Made by a program: the position numbers and the translations under genes. From NCBI GenBank assembly GCA_004298675.1, contig SCRI01000083.1, forward strand, positions 34,437-98,436: a DNA stretch of 64,000 nucleotides, given 5' to 3'. The notes beneath the pieces are model-generated. The model saw only the letters and a program-made list of their open reading frames with translations, searched no databases and was not told the origin of the DNA. Positions within the stretch are counted from its first letter, which is position 1. Each line of letters begins with the position of its first letter. The stretch is from a bacterium. GTDB taxonomy: Bacteria; Vulcanimicrobiota; Vulcanimicrobiia; Vulcanimicrobiales; SCRA01. This document shows, one piece after another, positions 42,126 through 55,572 of this stretch.

Positions 42126-42227
42126 GGGTGCAACCGCGTCGCCCCGTACCAGGGTTCTGAGGCCCGGCGCCCTCGCGGCGTCCGCGCAACTATTGATGAT
42201 GCTTCCCGAGCAAGGATGGAACGAGAA

Positions 42228-42560
42228 ATGAGCGCACTACCCGACGTCGGTACCGTCAACTTCAAGCAGGAGGTGCTGGAGTCCCAGCAGCCGGTACTCG
42301 TCGATTTCTGGGCCCCTTGGTGCGGCCCGTGTAAGATGTTGTCCCCGATCGTCGAGAAGGTGTCCGGATACTACGCCGGGCGCGTCAAGATGCTCAAGCT
42401 GAACACGGACGAGAACCCTAGCCTCGCCGGCGAGTACCAGGTCAGCGGCATCCCTTGCCTGATCCTCTACAAGAACGGCCGGGTGGTCGATCGCATCGTC
42501 GGCTACGTGCCCGAGAACGCGATCACCTCGATGATCGACAAGCACCTCAGCGCAGCCTAA
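42228..42560 (+). CDS. trxA: Thioredoxin
   Basis: 110-residue thioredoxin with W31-C32-G-P-C35 and the cis-proline loop SGIPCLILYKNG. The cysteine before that loop's L (IPC) is unusual; most have IPT. The ATG at 42228 has AAGGA about 11 bases upstream; an ATG at 42216 would add four residues. It precedes selA by 18 bp and may be co-transcribed with the selenocysteine genes. Confidence 0.93.
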   Translation: MSALPDVGTVNFKQEVLESQQPVLVDFWAPWCGPCKMLSPIVEKVSGYYAGRVKMLKLNTDENPSLAGEYQVSGIPCLILYKNGRVVDRIVGYVPENAITSMIDKHLSAA

Positions 42561-42578: not shown

Positions 42579-43955
42579 ATGTCGTCGACTCTGCGCGGCC
42601 TGCCGGCCGTGCATCGTCTGCTCGGCGAACCCGCCGTCGCCGCCTTTGGAGCCCTCCTAGGCGGCGGCGCGCTCACTTGCGCCGCGCGCGAGGTGCTCGA
42701 TGCCGAACGGGCGCGCCTGCACGACGAAGGTGGGGAGCCAGCTCCATACGAGGAACTGGTAGGGCGCCTACTCGTGCGACTGGCCGACGCTGAGAGCGAG
42801 GGCTTGGTGGCCGTGGTGAACGCGGCGGGCGTGCTCGTGCACACCAACCTCGGACGCGCGCCCTTGGCCGCGGAGGCGCTTGCGGAGATCGCGCGCATCG
42901 GCGCCGGCTACTCCAATCTCGAATTCGATTTGCGCGAGGGAGTGCGCGGCTCTCGTTACGAGCGCGTCAACGCGTTGTTGCGCGAGGTCACCGGCGCCGA
43001 AGATGCCGTGGTCGTCAATAACAACGCCGCGGCCGTGCTCTTGGTGCTGGACACCTTTGCCAAAGGGCACGAGGTGGTGGTGGCGCGCTCGCAGTTGGTG
43101 GAGATCGGGGGCGGCTTTCGCATCCCCGACGTCCTGCGCAAGAGCGGCTGCACTCTGGTGGAAGTCGGCGCCACCAACAAGACCTATCGTTCGGATTACG
43201 AGCGCGCGCTGACGCCGCAGACGGCGTTGCTGCTGCGTTGCCACCCCTCCAATTACCGCATTGAAGGATTCACGCGCGAGGTCGAGGCCGCTGAACTGGC
43301 GTCGCTCGGTGCGCGCAGCGGCATTCCCGTGGTGGAGGATCTCGGCAGTGGAACGCTGATCGATCTCGCGCGCTACGGCTTGCCGGGCGAACCGACGGTG
43401 CGCCAGGTGGTTGAAGCAGGCGTGGATCTCGTGACGTTCAGCGGTGACAAGCTCTTGGGCGGTCCGCAAGCGGGCATTATCGTGGGGCGTCGCGCCTTGA
43501 TTGCGCGCATGCGCGCCAACCCGCTGTTGCGCGCGCTGCGCGTCGACAAGTTGACGCTGGCGGCACTAGCCGCGACGCTGCGCCTGCATGCACAGCCCGG
43601 CGGTCTCGAGCGCATCCCGCTCTACGCGCTGTTGGCGCGACCGGTGGAGCGCATCGAAGAGTTGCTCGAAGGCGTGCGTGAGCGCTTGGCCGGGCGCATC
43701 GGCGCGGACCTGCGCGTGGAGGAGTCGGTGGCGTTCGTGGGCGGAGGCGCGCTGCCTACGGCAACGATTCGTTCCCGCGCGCTGGCGGTACATCCGCATC
43801 GCGGCGGGGCCGAGGCCTTGGCGCGACGGTTGCGCGAGAGCCGCCCCGCCATCGTTGGACGGCTTGAAGGCAACGACGTGCTGCTCGACGGCCGCGCACT
43901 GCGCGACGAGGATTTCGAGATCGTGTACGGCGCGCTGGCGCGAATCCTGAGCTAA
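42579..43955 (+). CDS. selA: L-seryl-tRNA(Sec) selenium transferase
   Basis: 458-residue PLP enzyme that converts Ser-tRNA(Sec) to Sec-tRNA(Sec) using selenophosphate. The PLP lysine is K291 in FSGDKLLGGPQAGI, the N-terminus reads LRGLPAVHRLLGEP, and GVLVHTNLGRAPLAAEA and NNNAAAVLLVL are family motifs. Length matches E. coli SelA (463). Next to selB (19 bp). selD, which makes selenophosphate, is not in the window. Confidence 0.96.
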   Translation: MSSTLRGLPAVHRLLGEPAVAAFGALLGGGALTCAAREVLDAERARLHDEGGEPAPYEELVGRLLVRLADAESEGLVAVVNAAGVLVHTNLGRAPLAAEALAEIARIGAGYSNLEFDLREGVRGSRYERVNALLREVTGAEDAVVVNNNAAAVLLVLDTFAKGHEVVVARSQLVEIGGGFRIPDVLRKSGCTLVEVGATNKTYRSDYERALTPQTALLLRCHPSNYRIEGFTREVEAAELASLGARSGIPVVEDLGSGTLIDLARYGLPGEPTVRQVVEAGVDLVTFSGDKLLGGPQAGIIVGRRALIARMRANPLLRALRVDKLTLAALAATLRLHAQPGGLERIPLYALLARPVERIEELLEGVRERLAGRIGADLRVEESVAFVGGGALPTATIRSRALAVHPHRGGAEALARRLRESRPAIVGRLEGNDVLLDGRALRDEDFEIVYGALARILS

Positions 43956-43974: not shown

Positions 43975-45840
43975 ATGCACGTCATTGGAACCGCCGGGCA
44001 CGTCGATCACGGTAAGTCCTCGCTCGTGCTGGCCCTCACGGGGACCAACCCCGATCGCTGGCTCGAAGAGCAAGTGCGTGGGATGACGCTCGATCTCGGC
44101 TTCGCGCGGCTCGATCTCGGAGACGGCGTGGAGGCGGGGATCGTCGACGTGCCGGGGCACGAGCGTTTTCTGCACAACATGCTGGCGGGCGCGGCGGGGA
44201 TGGAGCTGCTGCTGCTCGTGGTGGCTGCGAACGAAGGGCCGCGCCCGCAGACGCGCGAGCATCTCGCGATCGTGAGTTACCTCAATGTCCGGCGCGCGCT
44301 GATCGTGCTGACCAAGGCGGACCTGGTGGACGACGAGGAGTTGGCCCTGGCCGAGGAGGCGGTGCGCGAGGCAGCGGCGGGTACGGTGGCGGAGCATGCG
44401 CGTGCCGTCGCCACCTCCACCGTCACCGGGCGCGGCTTGGACGAGCTGCGCGCGGCGATCCGCGAGGAGCTGTTGGCGCTTCCCCCACGCCCGCTCGACG
44501 CGCCCGCCTACCTGCCCATCGATCGTTCCTTCGCGTTGCAAGGCCACGGGACGATCGTCACGGGCACGCTCATGCAGGGGCGAATGCGCGTGGGAGAAGA
44601 GTTGATGCTGCAGCCCGGTGGGCGACGCGTGCGCGTGCGCGGTCTGCACGTCTTCCATCGCGCCCTGGAAGAGGTGGGCGCGGGCTCACGCCTGGCCGTC
44701 AACCTGCCCGGCATCGACTACCGCGAGATCCAGCGTGGCATGACGCTGGGTGCCCCCGAGCTACAGCCGCGCGAGGCGCTAAACGTGCGCTTCCGGCCTT
44801 CAGCCGGGGGGCTCCAACTGCTGCGCCGCCGCACCAAGGTACGCGCGTACCTCGGCTCCGCGGAGATTCTCGGCACATTGGTCTTCGAGCGCGCGCCCGA
44901 GCGCGTGCAGGAGGTGGAGGCGACGCTGCATCTGCGCGAGCCCGCGCTGGCCTTCCCGGGCTCTACCTTCGTCGTGCGCCGGGTCTCGCCCAAAGATTTG
45001 TTGGGTGGTGGGATCATCGCCGGCGCCGGCGCCGTACCGGCACTTGCCGACGAAGGCGAGGCCTCCCCTGAGAGCATCGCGCTCGCGGCTGCGCTTGCCG
45101 CGGCCGGGCGCACGCCGCTGGCACTGAACGAGTTGGCGGCGCGCGCCAACCTGCGCGCCGAGCGCGCGGCGCAGGAGCTCGCCACGCTGCTCGAAGACGG
45201 GCGCGCGCTCGAGCTGGCGAAGCCGGCGGCGTATCTCGACGGCGGCGCCGGCGCCGCGCTGCTGGCGGAAGCAGGAAAGGCGCTGACGGAGCGTCACGAG
45301 CGGTCGCCGTGGGCGTTGGGCCTGCAGACGCCTGCGCTGGCGCGCGCGATGGGTGTCGCCGAGCCGCTGGCGGCGCGGCTGCTGGCGGCGTTTGCGCACG
45401 CGGGGAGTCTGGCCCAGCGCGGCGGCTGGTGGTCCCTGCCGTCGTTCGCGCCGCAGTTGAGCAAGGAGCAGCAGCGTTTCTTCGCAGCGACGCTGGCCGT
45501 CGACGCGCGTGCGCCGCTGACGCCGGTCGCACTCGTGGCCGTGCGCGAGCGTGTTGCCGCTTCGAAGGTCGCAGGCCTCGGTGATGCGCTGGAGACGCTC
45601 TTCGTGGGCGGGGCTCTCGTGAAGGTTGCCGATGAAGTCTACCGCCGCTCGCAGGTCGAGCAGATTCGTGCTCGCCTGGAGGAGGCGCTGCGCGCCAAAG
45701 GCGAGCTGACGATGGCCGAGTTCCGCGACGCCGTGGGAACTTCGCGCAAGTACTGCGTGCCGTTGCTGGAATGGTTCGACGCTACTGGCGTGACGGTGCG
45801 CGCGGGCGACGTGCGTCGCTTACGGCAGACCGCTCGCTGA
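43975..45840 (+). CDS. selB: Selenocysteine-specific elongation factor
   Basis: 621-residue GTPase that brings Sec-tRNA(Sec) to UGA codons. The P-loop is G8-HVDHGK-S, with [13 protein letters not shown] (G3) and LTKADLV (G4). Domains II-III follow, then winged-helix repeats in the C-terminal third that bind the SECIS hairpin ([20 protein letters not shown] at the end is the last one). The 3' end overlaps the convergent ABC ATPase gene by 21 bp. Confidence 0.96.
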
Positions 45841-47999: not shown

Positions 48000-48103
48000 A
48001 TCAGGCGACTTCGCCGTGCGCCCTCCGGCTCCGCCCTTGGCACGAAGGGGATCGGCGGGACGGCGCGTAGCCTGAGCGCGTAGGCGAGAGGAGCCGGATA
48101 GAC

Positions 48104-48529
48104 GTGAAGAACGAGAGGCGCATTGGGCGCTTCACCGTCGCGGGGCAGCTCACCGACGACGAGTTGGGAGGATTGCCCGCCCATGGTTACGGCCTATTGG
48201 TGAACGTGCGGCCGCCCGAAGAGTTAGACGAACCGGAGGAGCCGAAGGTGGGTGTGGGGTGCCGCTATGAGAACGTGCCCTTTACGGGGCGGACGCTCTC
48301 GCGCGATCACGTACTGCGGGTGCGTCAAGCGGTTGACGCGGCCATGGGACTCGACGTCCTGATCCACTGAGCAGGTGGGACGAGGGCCGCGGTCGTGGCC
48401 GCCATCATCGAGTCGGAAGTGGACGGGAGCGGCGTGCGGGGCACGCTTGGGAAACTCATCGAGGCTGATTTCGACGTCACGGGAACCCCATACGAACACT
48501 TTATCGAACAATATTTCACACGAGGGTAA
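48104..48529 (+). CDS. Candidate selenoprotein, DSP/TIGR01244-like phosphatase or sulfurtransferase
   Basis: 141 residues if the TGA at 48368-48370 is read as selenocysteine (U89). The N-terminal half (RFTVAGQLTDDELGGLPAHG, then LLVNVRPPEEL) matches the dual-specificity-phosphatase-like TIGR01244 family, where the P-loop is H/Y-C-x-S-G-T/N-R. Here the frame reads V-L-I-H-[TGA]-A-G-G-T-R-A-A-V-V-A-A, so the TGA occupies the catalytic cysteine, and downstream sequence keeps the family helix before a TAA at 48527. A SECIS-like hairpin follows the TGA, and a terminator follows the TAA, not the TGA. GTG start with GAGGAG upstream. selA, selB and tRNA-Sec are in this window. Alternative: a nonsense-mutated pseudogene. 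Confidence 0.8.
48385..48400 (+). promoter_or_regulatory. SECIS-like hairpin after in-frame TGA
   Basis: GGCCGC-GGTC-GTGGCC folds into a 6 bp stem (one G-U pair) with a GGTC loop. The loop is 21-24 nt after the TGA, inside the usual bacterial SECIS distance, and GGUC resembles the apical loop of the E. coli fdhF element that SelB recognises. Prediction by eye only. Confidence 0.6.
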
Positions 48530-48557: not shown

Positions 48558-48599
48558 ACGTTTCGTATTCTCTAGACGGAAAGCTATATGGAGGGTGTT

Positions 48600-49721
48600 A
48601 TGGCAAGGATATCACCATGGCTGCGTTCGATCGCGGTCCTTTCGATATTGGCGCTCGCGAGCTGCGGTGGTGGCGGCGGCGGGAGCGCTGCCGCTCCACC
48701 GGCGAGTGCTACGCCTCCCGGCACCAGCACCCCAGCGCCGGTCACGCAAGCAGCGGTGCAGCGCACCGATGCGGCGCAGTCGCTGCAGATGCTGCAGGCC
48801 TCGCGTGGTCTGAATTCCGGCGGTGTGACGACGGCCTCTGTGGCACGGCGCGCTGCCACCCAGGTGCGGCGCGCGATGTCGGCCGGGGTGCGGCACGTGG
48901 CCTCGGTAGGGACCTGTACGTCGCAAACCGTGACGAGCATGAACCAGACCTCGTCGACGACTGCGACGATTACCGTGCAGTCGTACTATGACCAGTCGTG
49001 CACGAGCCTAGAGGGCACACTCGTCTGGAACCTCACGGTAAACTCGCCGACGTCGGTCTCTGGACCGGCGACGATGACCCGCTATGCCGCCAGCGGCAGC
49101 GTCGTAACCTACGAGACGCTTTCGTTGAGCATGACATTCACTGACACGACTCTGACACAGCTGTCGCAGTTGAGCGTTGATGTGACGAGCATCGCGAGCT
49201 CGGTCAACGGACCGTCGATCGGCAGCTTTGGCATCGCCTGCGGCCTCACCGGAGCGTCGAGCCTCACGTGTGGACTGGGTGCCGTGGCCAACATGCCGTC
49301 GCTCTCCGTTGAGCAAGGCTTCACGCTCGGGCTCACGGGTAGCGAGTCGGCATCGTCAGTGCAGGCAACGATCACCGCGCAGGCATTTCAGGGTGGGCTG
49401 AGCGCTCTCACGCTCAGCCCTGGTACGTTCCCAGCGTGGACGATCAGCGGTGGCGCGCTGCTTGACAGTGCCTCCGCTACGGTAGCCGCGACGTACGCTT
49501 CCAATGGCACGCCGACGTCGCTCGCCTTCACGATGACCGACTCACAGGATCAAGCCACCGTGGTTCTGGTGGCGAACTCGAGTGGGATTGCGGGGACGAT
49601 CGCCCGGACCGATACGGGTGCGACCGTGGCGACCTTCACGATCGATGCCCTAGGCAACGGGACGATCAGCTACAGCAACGGAACCCAAGGGCAGATCGAG
49701 GACTACCTGATCGTCTCCTAG
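48600..49721 (+). CDS. Lipoprotein of unknown function
   Basis: 373 residues. A lipobox L-A-L-A-S-C ends the signal peptide, followed by a Gly run and a Thr/Pro/Ala-rich linker. The rest is rich in Ser/Thr beta-strand-like sequence (TVTSMNQTSSTTATITVQSY), suggesting a surface beta-rich domain. GGAGGG is seven bases before the ATG at 48600. No family recognised. An outer- or cell-surface lipoprotein is inferred. Confidence 0.75.
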   Translation: MARISPWLRSIAVLSILALASCGGGGGGSAAAPPASATPPGTSTPAPVTQAAVQRTDAAQSLQMLQASRGLNSGGVTTASVARRAATQVRRAMSAGVRHVASVGTCTSQTVTSMNQTSSTTATITVQSYYDQSCTSLEGTLVWNLTVNSPTSVSGPATMTRYAASGSVVTYETLSLSMTFTDTTLTQLSQLSVDVTSIASSVNGPSIGSFGIACGLTGASSLTCGLGAVANMPSLSVEQGFTLGLTGSESASSVQATITAQAFQGGLSALTLSPGTFPAWTISGGALLDSASATVAATYASNGTPTSLAFTMTDSQDQATVVLVANSSGIAGTIARTDTGATVATFTIDALGNGTISYSNGTQGQIEDYLIVS

Positions 49722-55478: not shown

Positions 55479-55572
55479 GGGAGAGTATGGGCCTGGTGGC
55501 TCACCCGGTCTTCAAAACCGCGGAGGCCTTCGCAAGGGGGCTGGTCGGTTCGATTCCGACACTTTCCCGCCA
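55479..55572 (+). tRNA. selC: tRNA-Sec (anticodon TCA)
   Basis: 94 nt including an encoded CCA. The acceptor stem has 8 bp (GGGAGAGT with ACTTTCCC), one more than normal tRNAs. The anticodon loop is CTTCAAA with TCA at 55512-55514, the variable arm is long, the T arm is TCGG-TTCGATT-CCGA, and the discriminator is G. These are the marks of bacterial selenocysteine tRNA. It serves SelA/SelB from 42.6-45.8 kb. Confidence 0.93.

Follow-up and report, generated by a model that had tools for sequence, protein, structure and literature searches.

A probable selenocysteine variant of the DUF442 domain in the bacterial phylum Vulcanimicrobiota/Eremiobacterota

Introduction

A 64,000-nucleotide stretch of DNA from a member of the Vulcanimicrobiota, referred to here in its entirety as the window, contains a reading frame at 48104-48529 that runs through an in-frame TGA, raising the question of whether this codon ends a short protein or is read as an amino acid. 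The original prediction, made from the DNA letters without database searches, held that the codon specifies selenocysteine (Sec) in place of the catalytic cysteine of a phosphatase-like loop, and that the resulting selenoprotein is new. Here we assess this reading by comparison across the phylum, and ask which chemistry the encoded protein is likely to perform.

Results

An open frame interrupted by a single TGA

Re-reading the frame from the sequence confirmed the predicted coordinates and the residues around the TGA (VLIH-U-AGGTR-AAVVAAII). From the GTG at 48104, 88 codons lead to the TGA at 48368-48370, followed by 52 sense codons and a TAA at 48527-48529, with the TGA as the sole in-frame internal stop between these ends. 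The GTG start is supported by an M-K-N-E beginning common to nearly all homologues in the alignment. The standard gene call stops at the TGA after 88 residues and, as anticipated, loses the active site. The features of the gene, all on the forward strand, are as follows.

48086..48093, +, likely ribosome binding site GAGAGGAG, read from the sequence, about 10 nt before the GTG
48104..48529, +, complete putative Sec gene from GTG to TAA, 141 aa including Sec89, homologues aligning over residues 1-139 of 141
48365..48385, +, active-site loop H-U-A-G-G-T-R, residues 88-94, from the alignment of 21 homologues
48368..48370, +, in-frame TGA, predicted Sec89
48371..48526, +, 52 post-UGA codons under protein-level constraint (dN/dS below)

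A 377-residue Ser/Thr/Ala-rich, lipoprotein-like open reading frame without a Pfam match adjoins the gene downstream at 48588-49721.

The TGA and the sequence beyond it are conserved across the phylum

The homologue search covered 149 genomes of the phylum, which is represented in public records mainly by Candidatus Eremiobacterota/WPS-2 assemblies, and 21 of the 149 carry the gene. The original prediction had looked to homologues with Cys or TGA at position 89 for support, and both occur in the same column: TGA in 16 species and a Cys codon (TGC/TGT) in the remaining five (genomes G038, G053, G057, G101 and G121). The other 15 TGA species share 41-77% protein identity with the window protein over its whole length, and no further in-frame stop interrupts the coding sequence in any of the 21 species. 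Invariant throughout the homologues are H88, U/C89, T93 and R94 of the loop along with R36, E40 and R74, while the C-terminal end T-P-Y-x-x-F-I-x-x-Y-F is also kept; Sec89 is the sole conserved Cys/Sec in the alignment. The gene tree requires at least two changes between Sec and Cys. Outside the phylum, a pattern scan of genome contigs found Cys homologues in Methylobacterium/Methylorubrum and Cys forms only; Sec forms may nonetheless occur there.

Downstream of the UGA, dN/dS ranges from 0.06 to 0.47, lies below 1 in nine of nine pairs and is similar to the upstream value. Because synonymous sites are already strongly diverged among the relatives compared, neutral retention of either the frame or the TGA is an unreasonable explanation. 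Sequencing error as the source of the TGA was rejected, given its presence at the same column in 16 species. None of the three outcomes listed in advance as contrary to the prediction, namely a true end at the TGA, a sequencing error or decay of the downstream part, agrees with the 16-species TGA and the downstream dN/dS below 1.

Two irregularities emerged among the database records. Near a contig end (L015, G037:C164:9534-9755) lies a second, broken copy whose sequence before the UGA is nearly that of G010; beyond the UGA it is unrelated, and it represents a chimera, contaminant or pseudogene. Two assemblies titled Rhodospirillales bacterium (L030 and L033) carry the phylum's version of the gene on contigs matching G057 and G005, both placed in the order to which the window's genome belongs, and the titles look wrong.

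A covarying hairpin accompanies the UGA

A six-pair stem is common to all 16 UGA copies and is capped, 20 nt past the UGA, by an apical loop that reads GGUC without exception; with the U of the UGA as position 1, this loop occupies positions 24-27. In the window this element is placed as follows.

48385-48390 / 48395-48400, +, stem of the SECIS hairpin, with the apical loop GGUC at 48391-48394, supported by covariation and synonymous resampling

The spacing fits the range for bacterial SECIS elements, in which the apical loop lies 16-37 nt from the UGA (PMC10778597). Pairing holds in 97.9% of stem cells across the 16 UGA copies, and four of the six pairs have changed on both sides (G-C/C-G/A-U at the base, C-G/U-A inside), giving a covariation score of 0.444 versus 0.225 for shuffled alignments (0/500). 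Pairing drops to 23-75% once the 3' arm is displaced by one to three columns. When synonymous codons were resampled according to the family's codon use in 2000 sets, the GGUC loop was expected in 4.2 copies (observed 16/16; 0/2000) and complete hairpins in 0.8 (observed 14; 0/2000), and no set in 2000 reached the observed number of pairs. The protein sequence therefore does not account for the hairpin, since synonymous resampling never reproduces it. The GGUC loop is absent from all five Cys copies, in which pairing stands at 76.7%, or 23 pairs against 21.3 (sd 1.6) with resampled codons, and is thus little better than resampling. Folded as a single sequence, the window's post-UGA region is not significantly stable (z -0.79 to 0.27), so the hairpin is visible by comparison only.

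In E. coli fdhF, too, SelB contacts a GGU in the apical loop. In the present gene, SelB carrying Sec-tRNA-Sec would bind the GGUC-loop hairpin just past the UGA, and the ribosome would insert Sec as residue 89, which would be the DUF442 nucleophile.

Selenocysteine machinery in the window and the phylum

The claim that selA, selB and tRNA-Sec all lie in the window held true, each being located there.

42579..43955, +, selA, selenocysteine synthase
43975..45840, +, selB, Sec-specific elongation factor, with SelB-wing_3
55479..55568, +, tRNA-Sec with UCA anticodon (RF01852, 71.7 bits)

The same genome also holds selD. Across the 16 TGA genomes, selA scored above cut-off in all, selB in 14 and a high-scoring tRNA-Sec was found in 12, and most of the genomes missing selB or tRNA-Sec are fragmented or incomplete assemblies. 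One Cys genome, G038 (91% complete), has neither selA nor selB above cut-off and no high-scoring tRNA-Sec, and has apparently lost the Sec trait. In the remaining four Cys genomes selA and selB are retained, indicating that genomes able to make Sec do not strictly need it.

Several further observations concern these genes. The selD gene of the window's genome (L057, G000:C43:69356-70279, minus strand) is itself a UGA gene (CAG-UGA-ASK), with a downstream hairpin whose apical loop is UCC, not GGUC. In a formate-dehydrogenase-like gene of the same genome (L060, G000:C87:17190-17939, minus strand) the UGA occupies the canonical site (ARI-U-HSST); the hairpin after it, GGUGCCU-GGUCU-AGGCACC, shares the GGUC of the window's Sec gene and has its GGU at nt 22-24 counting from the U of the UGA. 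A thioredoxin gene at 42216-42560 sits directly upstream of selA-selB, an order identical in G002, and a distant phylum member contains a selA match with one in-frame TGA (G134:C21:69523-70815).

The UGA is very probably read as selenocysteine

The conserved UGA, the Cys homologues, the covariation of the SECIS hairpin, the downstream constraint and the Sec machinery together strongly support the original prediction on its central point: judged from these comparative sequence data, 48104-48529 very probably encodes a selenoprotein with Sec89 at the catalytic position of PF04273, where five homologues have the family's nucleophilic Cys. We infer that translation through the UGA is efficient. 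A genuine stop, producing an 88-residue protein or marking a decaying pseudogene, agrees with the standard gene call and is nonetheless highly improbable, as 21 species keep the downstream part uninterrupted by any other in-frame stop, its dN/dS lies below 1 for the tested pairs, the covarying hairpin is tied to the UGA copies, and the Cys copies form one continuous protein. Least credible of all is that an altered code or a suppressor makes the in-frame UGA specify Cys, Trp or Gly, because UGA terminates several ordinary window genes (selB and four others) and some homologues of the Sec gene, the search for tRNAs in the window found tRNA-Sec only, the gene has a SECIS, and the UGAs of SelD and the formate-dehydrogenase-like protein fall at known Sec sites.

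A DUF442 domain with a predicted tyrosine phosphatase-like fold

The read-through protein matches PF04273 (BLH_phosphatase, formerly DUF442) over residues 9-101 with 34.9 bits against a gathering threshold of 26.1. The match to TIGR01244 (residues 10-102, E 4e-9) reaches 36.6 bits, below the 85.85 cut-off, and that to NF040641 (Blh, bifunctional sulfur transferase/dioxygenase) 36.1 bits, below 625, the protein being a single 141-residue domain. The Pfam scan returned no match to rhodanese PF00581, and no selenoprotein model matched in the NCBIfam scan. The predicted structure (pLDDT 94.3, pTM 0.90) adopts the fold of protein tyrosine phosphatases (PTPs) and dual-specificity phosphatases (DSPs), with Sec as nucleophile and an Arg at the end of the loop. 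Its best PDB match is the DUF442 protein 3gxg/3gxh (Z 18.7); 2f46 (Z 16.1) is one of several other close structures, and small PTPs such as Tk-PTP and VHZ also come near in the structure search. The description of the protein as DSP/TIGR01244-like therefore stands for the fold and, through the above-threshold PF04273 match, for the remote family, but not for TIGR01244 membership, where the score falls below cut-off.

In all 21 homologues the loop reads H-U/C-X4-R, with six residues from U/C to R, departing from the HCX5R signature of tyrosine phosphatases, whose CX5R loop has seven; six residues is likewise the loop length of rhodaneses. The stretch expected to supply the general acid (residues 58-68) contains no conserved Asp, position 63 being Asp in 8/21 homologues of the alignment.

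Gene neighbourhood

Synteny around the gene, including branched-chain amino acid ABC transporters, LepA, peptidases and similar genes, is shared only by closer relatives. In G026 a response-regulator gene lies upstream of the Sec gene, with a homologous gene in G110. Comparison of neighbourhoods among relatives revealed no consistent partner and no conserved neighbour pointing to sulfur metabolism. Linkage to the sel genes is confined to the window's genus, where three of its four members show it; in other genera it is absent, the Sec gene lying on other contigs or far away. Given this limited distribution, we do not assign the protein to the Sec synthesis pathway.

Discussion

Relation to characterized systems

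Two DUF442 domains provide the closest functional precedents. That of Cupriavidus SQR has the loop CRTGTR and acts as a thiosulfate/GSSH sulfurtransferase for which the loop-end Arg is essential (PMC8533005), and the PTP-folded DUF442 domain of Blh has demonstrated sulfurtransferase activity (PMC5823870). The window protein resembles both in its PF04273 domain, predicted PTP-like fold and six-residue loop ending in T-R (PMC8533005, PMC5823870). It differs in having Sec for Cys, in standing alone without an SQR or dioxygenase domain, and in its loop (UAGGTR versus CRTGTR), and the sequences are only distantly similar. The TIGR01244 family sulfur transferase can likewise be aligned, albeit with the sub-cut-off score and with Sec at the nucleophile here. 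NMA1982 (2f46) and the Shewanella DUF442 protein (3gxg/3gxh), the best sequence-profile and fold matches, show 16-18% identity and have a Cys nucleophile.

Among known selenoproteins, the rhodanese-like forms 1-5 (PF00581) carry Sec at a sulfurtransferase-type nucleophile, with UxxG in forms 2 and 4 (PMC13188914), but belong to the Rhodanese (Cdc25-like) domain family, unlike the PF04273 protein described here. The selenoprotein arsenate reductase (TIGR00014) and the arsenate reductase-like NF041106 also place a Sec nucleophile in an oxyanion enzyme (PMC13188914); these are different families, and the window protein matches neither.

A possible selenol-based sulfurtransferase

Three functions had been offered for the protein: phosphatase, arsenate-reductase-like or sulfurtransferase-like enzyme. 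The last fits best, as the loop is CX4R rather than CX5R and residues 58-68 show no conserved Asp, and by analogy with the DUF442 sulfurtransferases we consider a selenol sulfurtransferase the most likely mechanism, at roughly even odds. In such a cycle, the selenolate within the six-residue loop U-x-x-G-T-R would take up sulfane sulfur from thiosulfate, GSSH or polysulfide with the assistance of the loop-end Arg94, and the resulting E-Se-S intermediate would hand the sulfur on to a thiol acceptor, a scheme suggested by the six-residue loop together with the sulfur transfer of the tested DUF442 relatives. Counter to this, the loop has no equivalent of the basic residue (CR-) in the tested DUF442 loop.

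Another redox role is possible though less likely, whether reduction of an oxyanion (arsenate, selenate), removal of peroxide or delivery of selenium to SelD. As a rule Sec is found at redox or nucleophilic positions; arsenate reduction is also known for CDC25, a phosphatase with a rhodanese fold and an HCX5R loop (PMC10135228); and the gene lies a few kb from selA-selB in two further members of the window's genus. Against such a role, the protein has no resolving thiol, Sec89 being its sole conserved Cys/Sec, and the sel linkage does not extend to other genera. Unlikely, in turn, is a selenoprotein in which the selenolate replaces the PTP cysteine of a protein or small-molecule phosphatase. 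The PTP/DSP fold found by prediction and structure search would suit this activity, and Pfam and PDB entries call DUF442 members putative phosphatases; yet the loop is HUX4R rather than HCX5R, the alignment of residues 58-68 lacks the conserved Asp, and the DUF442 domains tested so far transfer sulfur (PMC8533005, PMC5823870). A study cited in PMC10135228 is reported to have moved the preference of a rhodanese from sulfur to phosphate with a longer loop.

A probable new family of selenoproteins

Among the 119 families/subfamilies that a 2026 inventory gives for prokaryotic selenoproteins there is no PF04273, TIGR01244 or phosphatase entry (PMC13188914), and a literature search of partial coverage combining selenoprotein with Eremiobacter-, DUF442, TIGR01244 or PF04273 found no report. 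This absence and that of any matching NCBIfam selenoprotein model support the claim of novelty, and we class the family as a new one among selenoproteins, in which the known DUF442 domain takes a Sec form. On the basis of the structural model, it is apparently the first selenoprotein family on a PTP-like fold. The fuller proposal, that this is the first natural PTP/DSP-fold selenoprotein family, whose six-residue-loop selenolate transfers sulfane sulfur (or selenium) and which has undergone repeated Sec/Cys exchange within the Eremiobacterota/Vulcanimicrobiota, may equally prove right or wrong.

The occurrence of natural Sec and Cys members in one family makes the chemistry of selenium and cysteine directly comparable. 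Across the phylum, gene callers cut the protein at 88 residues and so lose its active site, concealing a Sec protein type that is conserved in many species of this little-known bacterial phylum.
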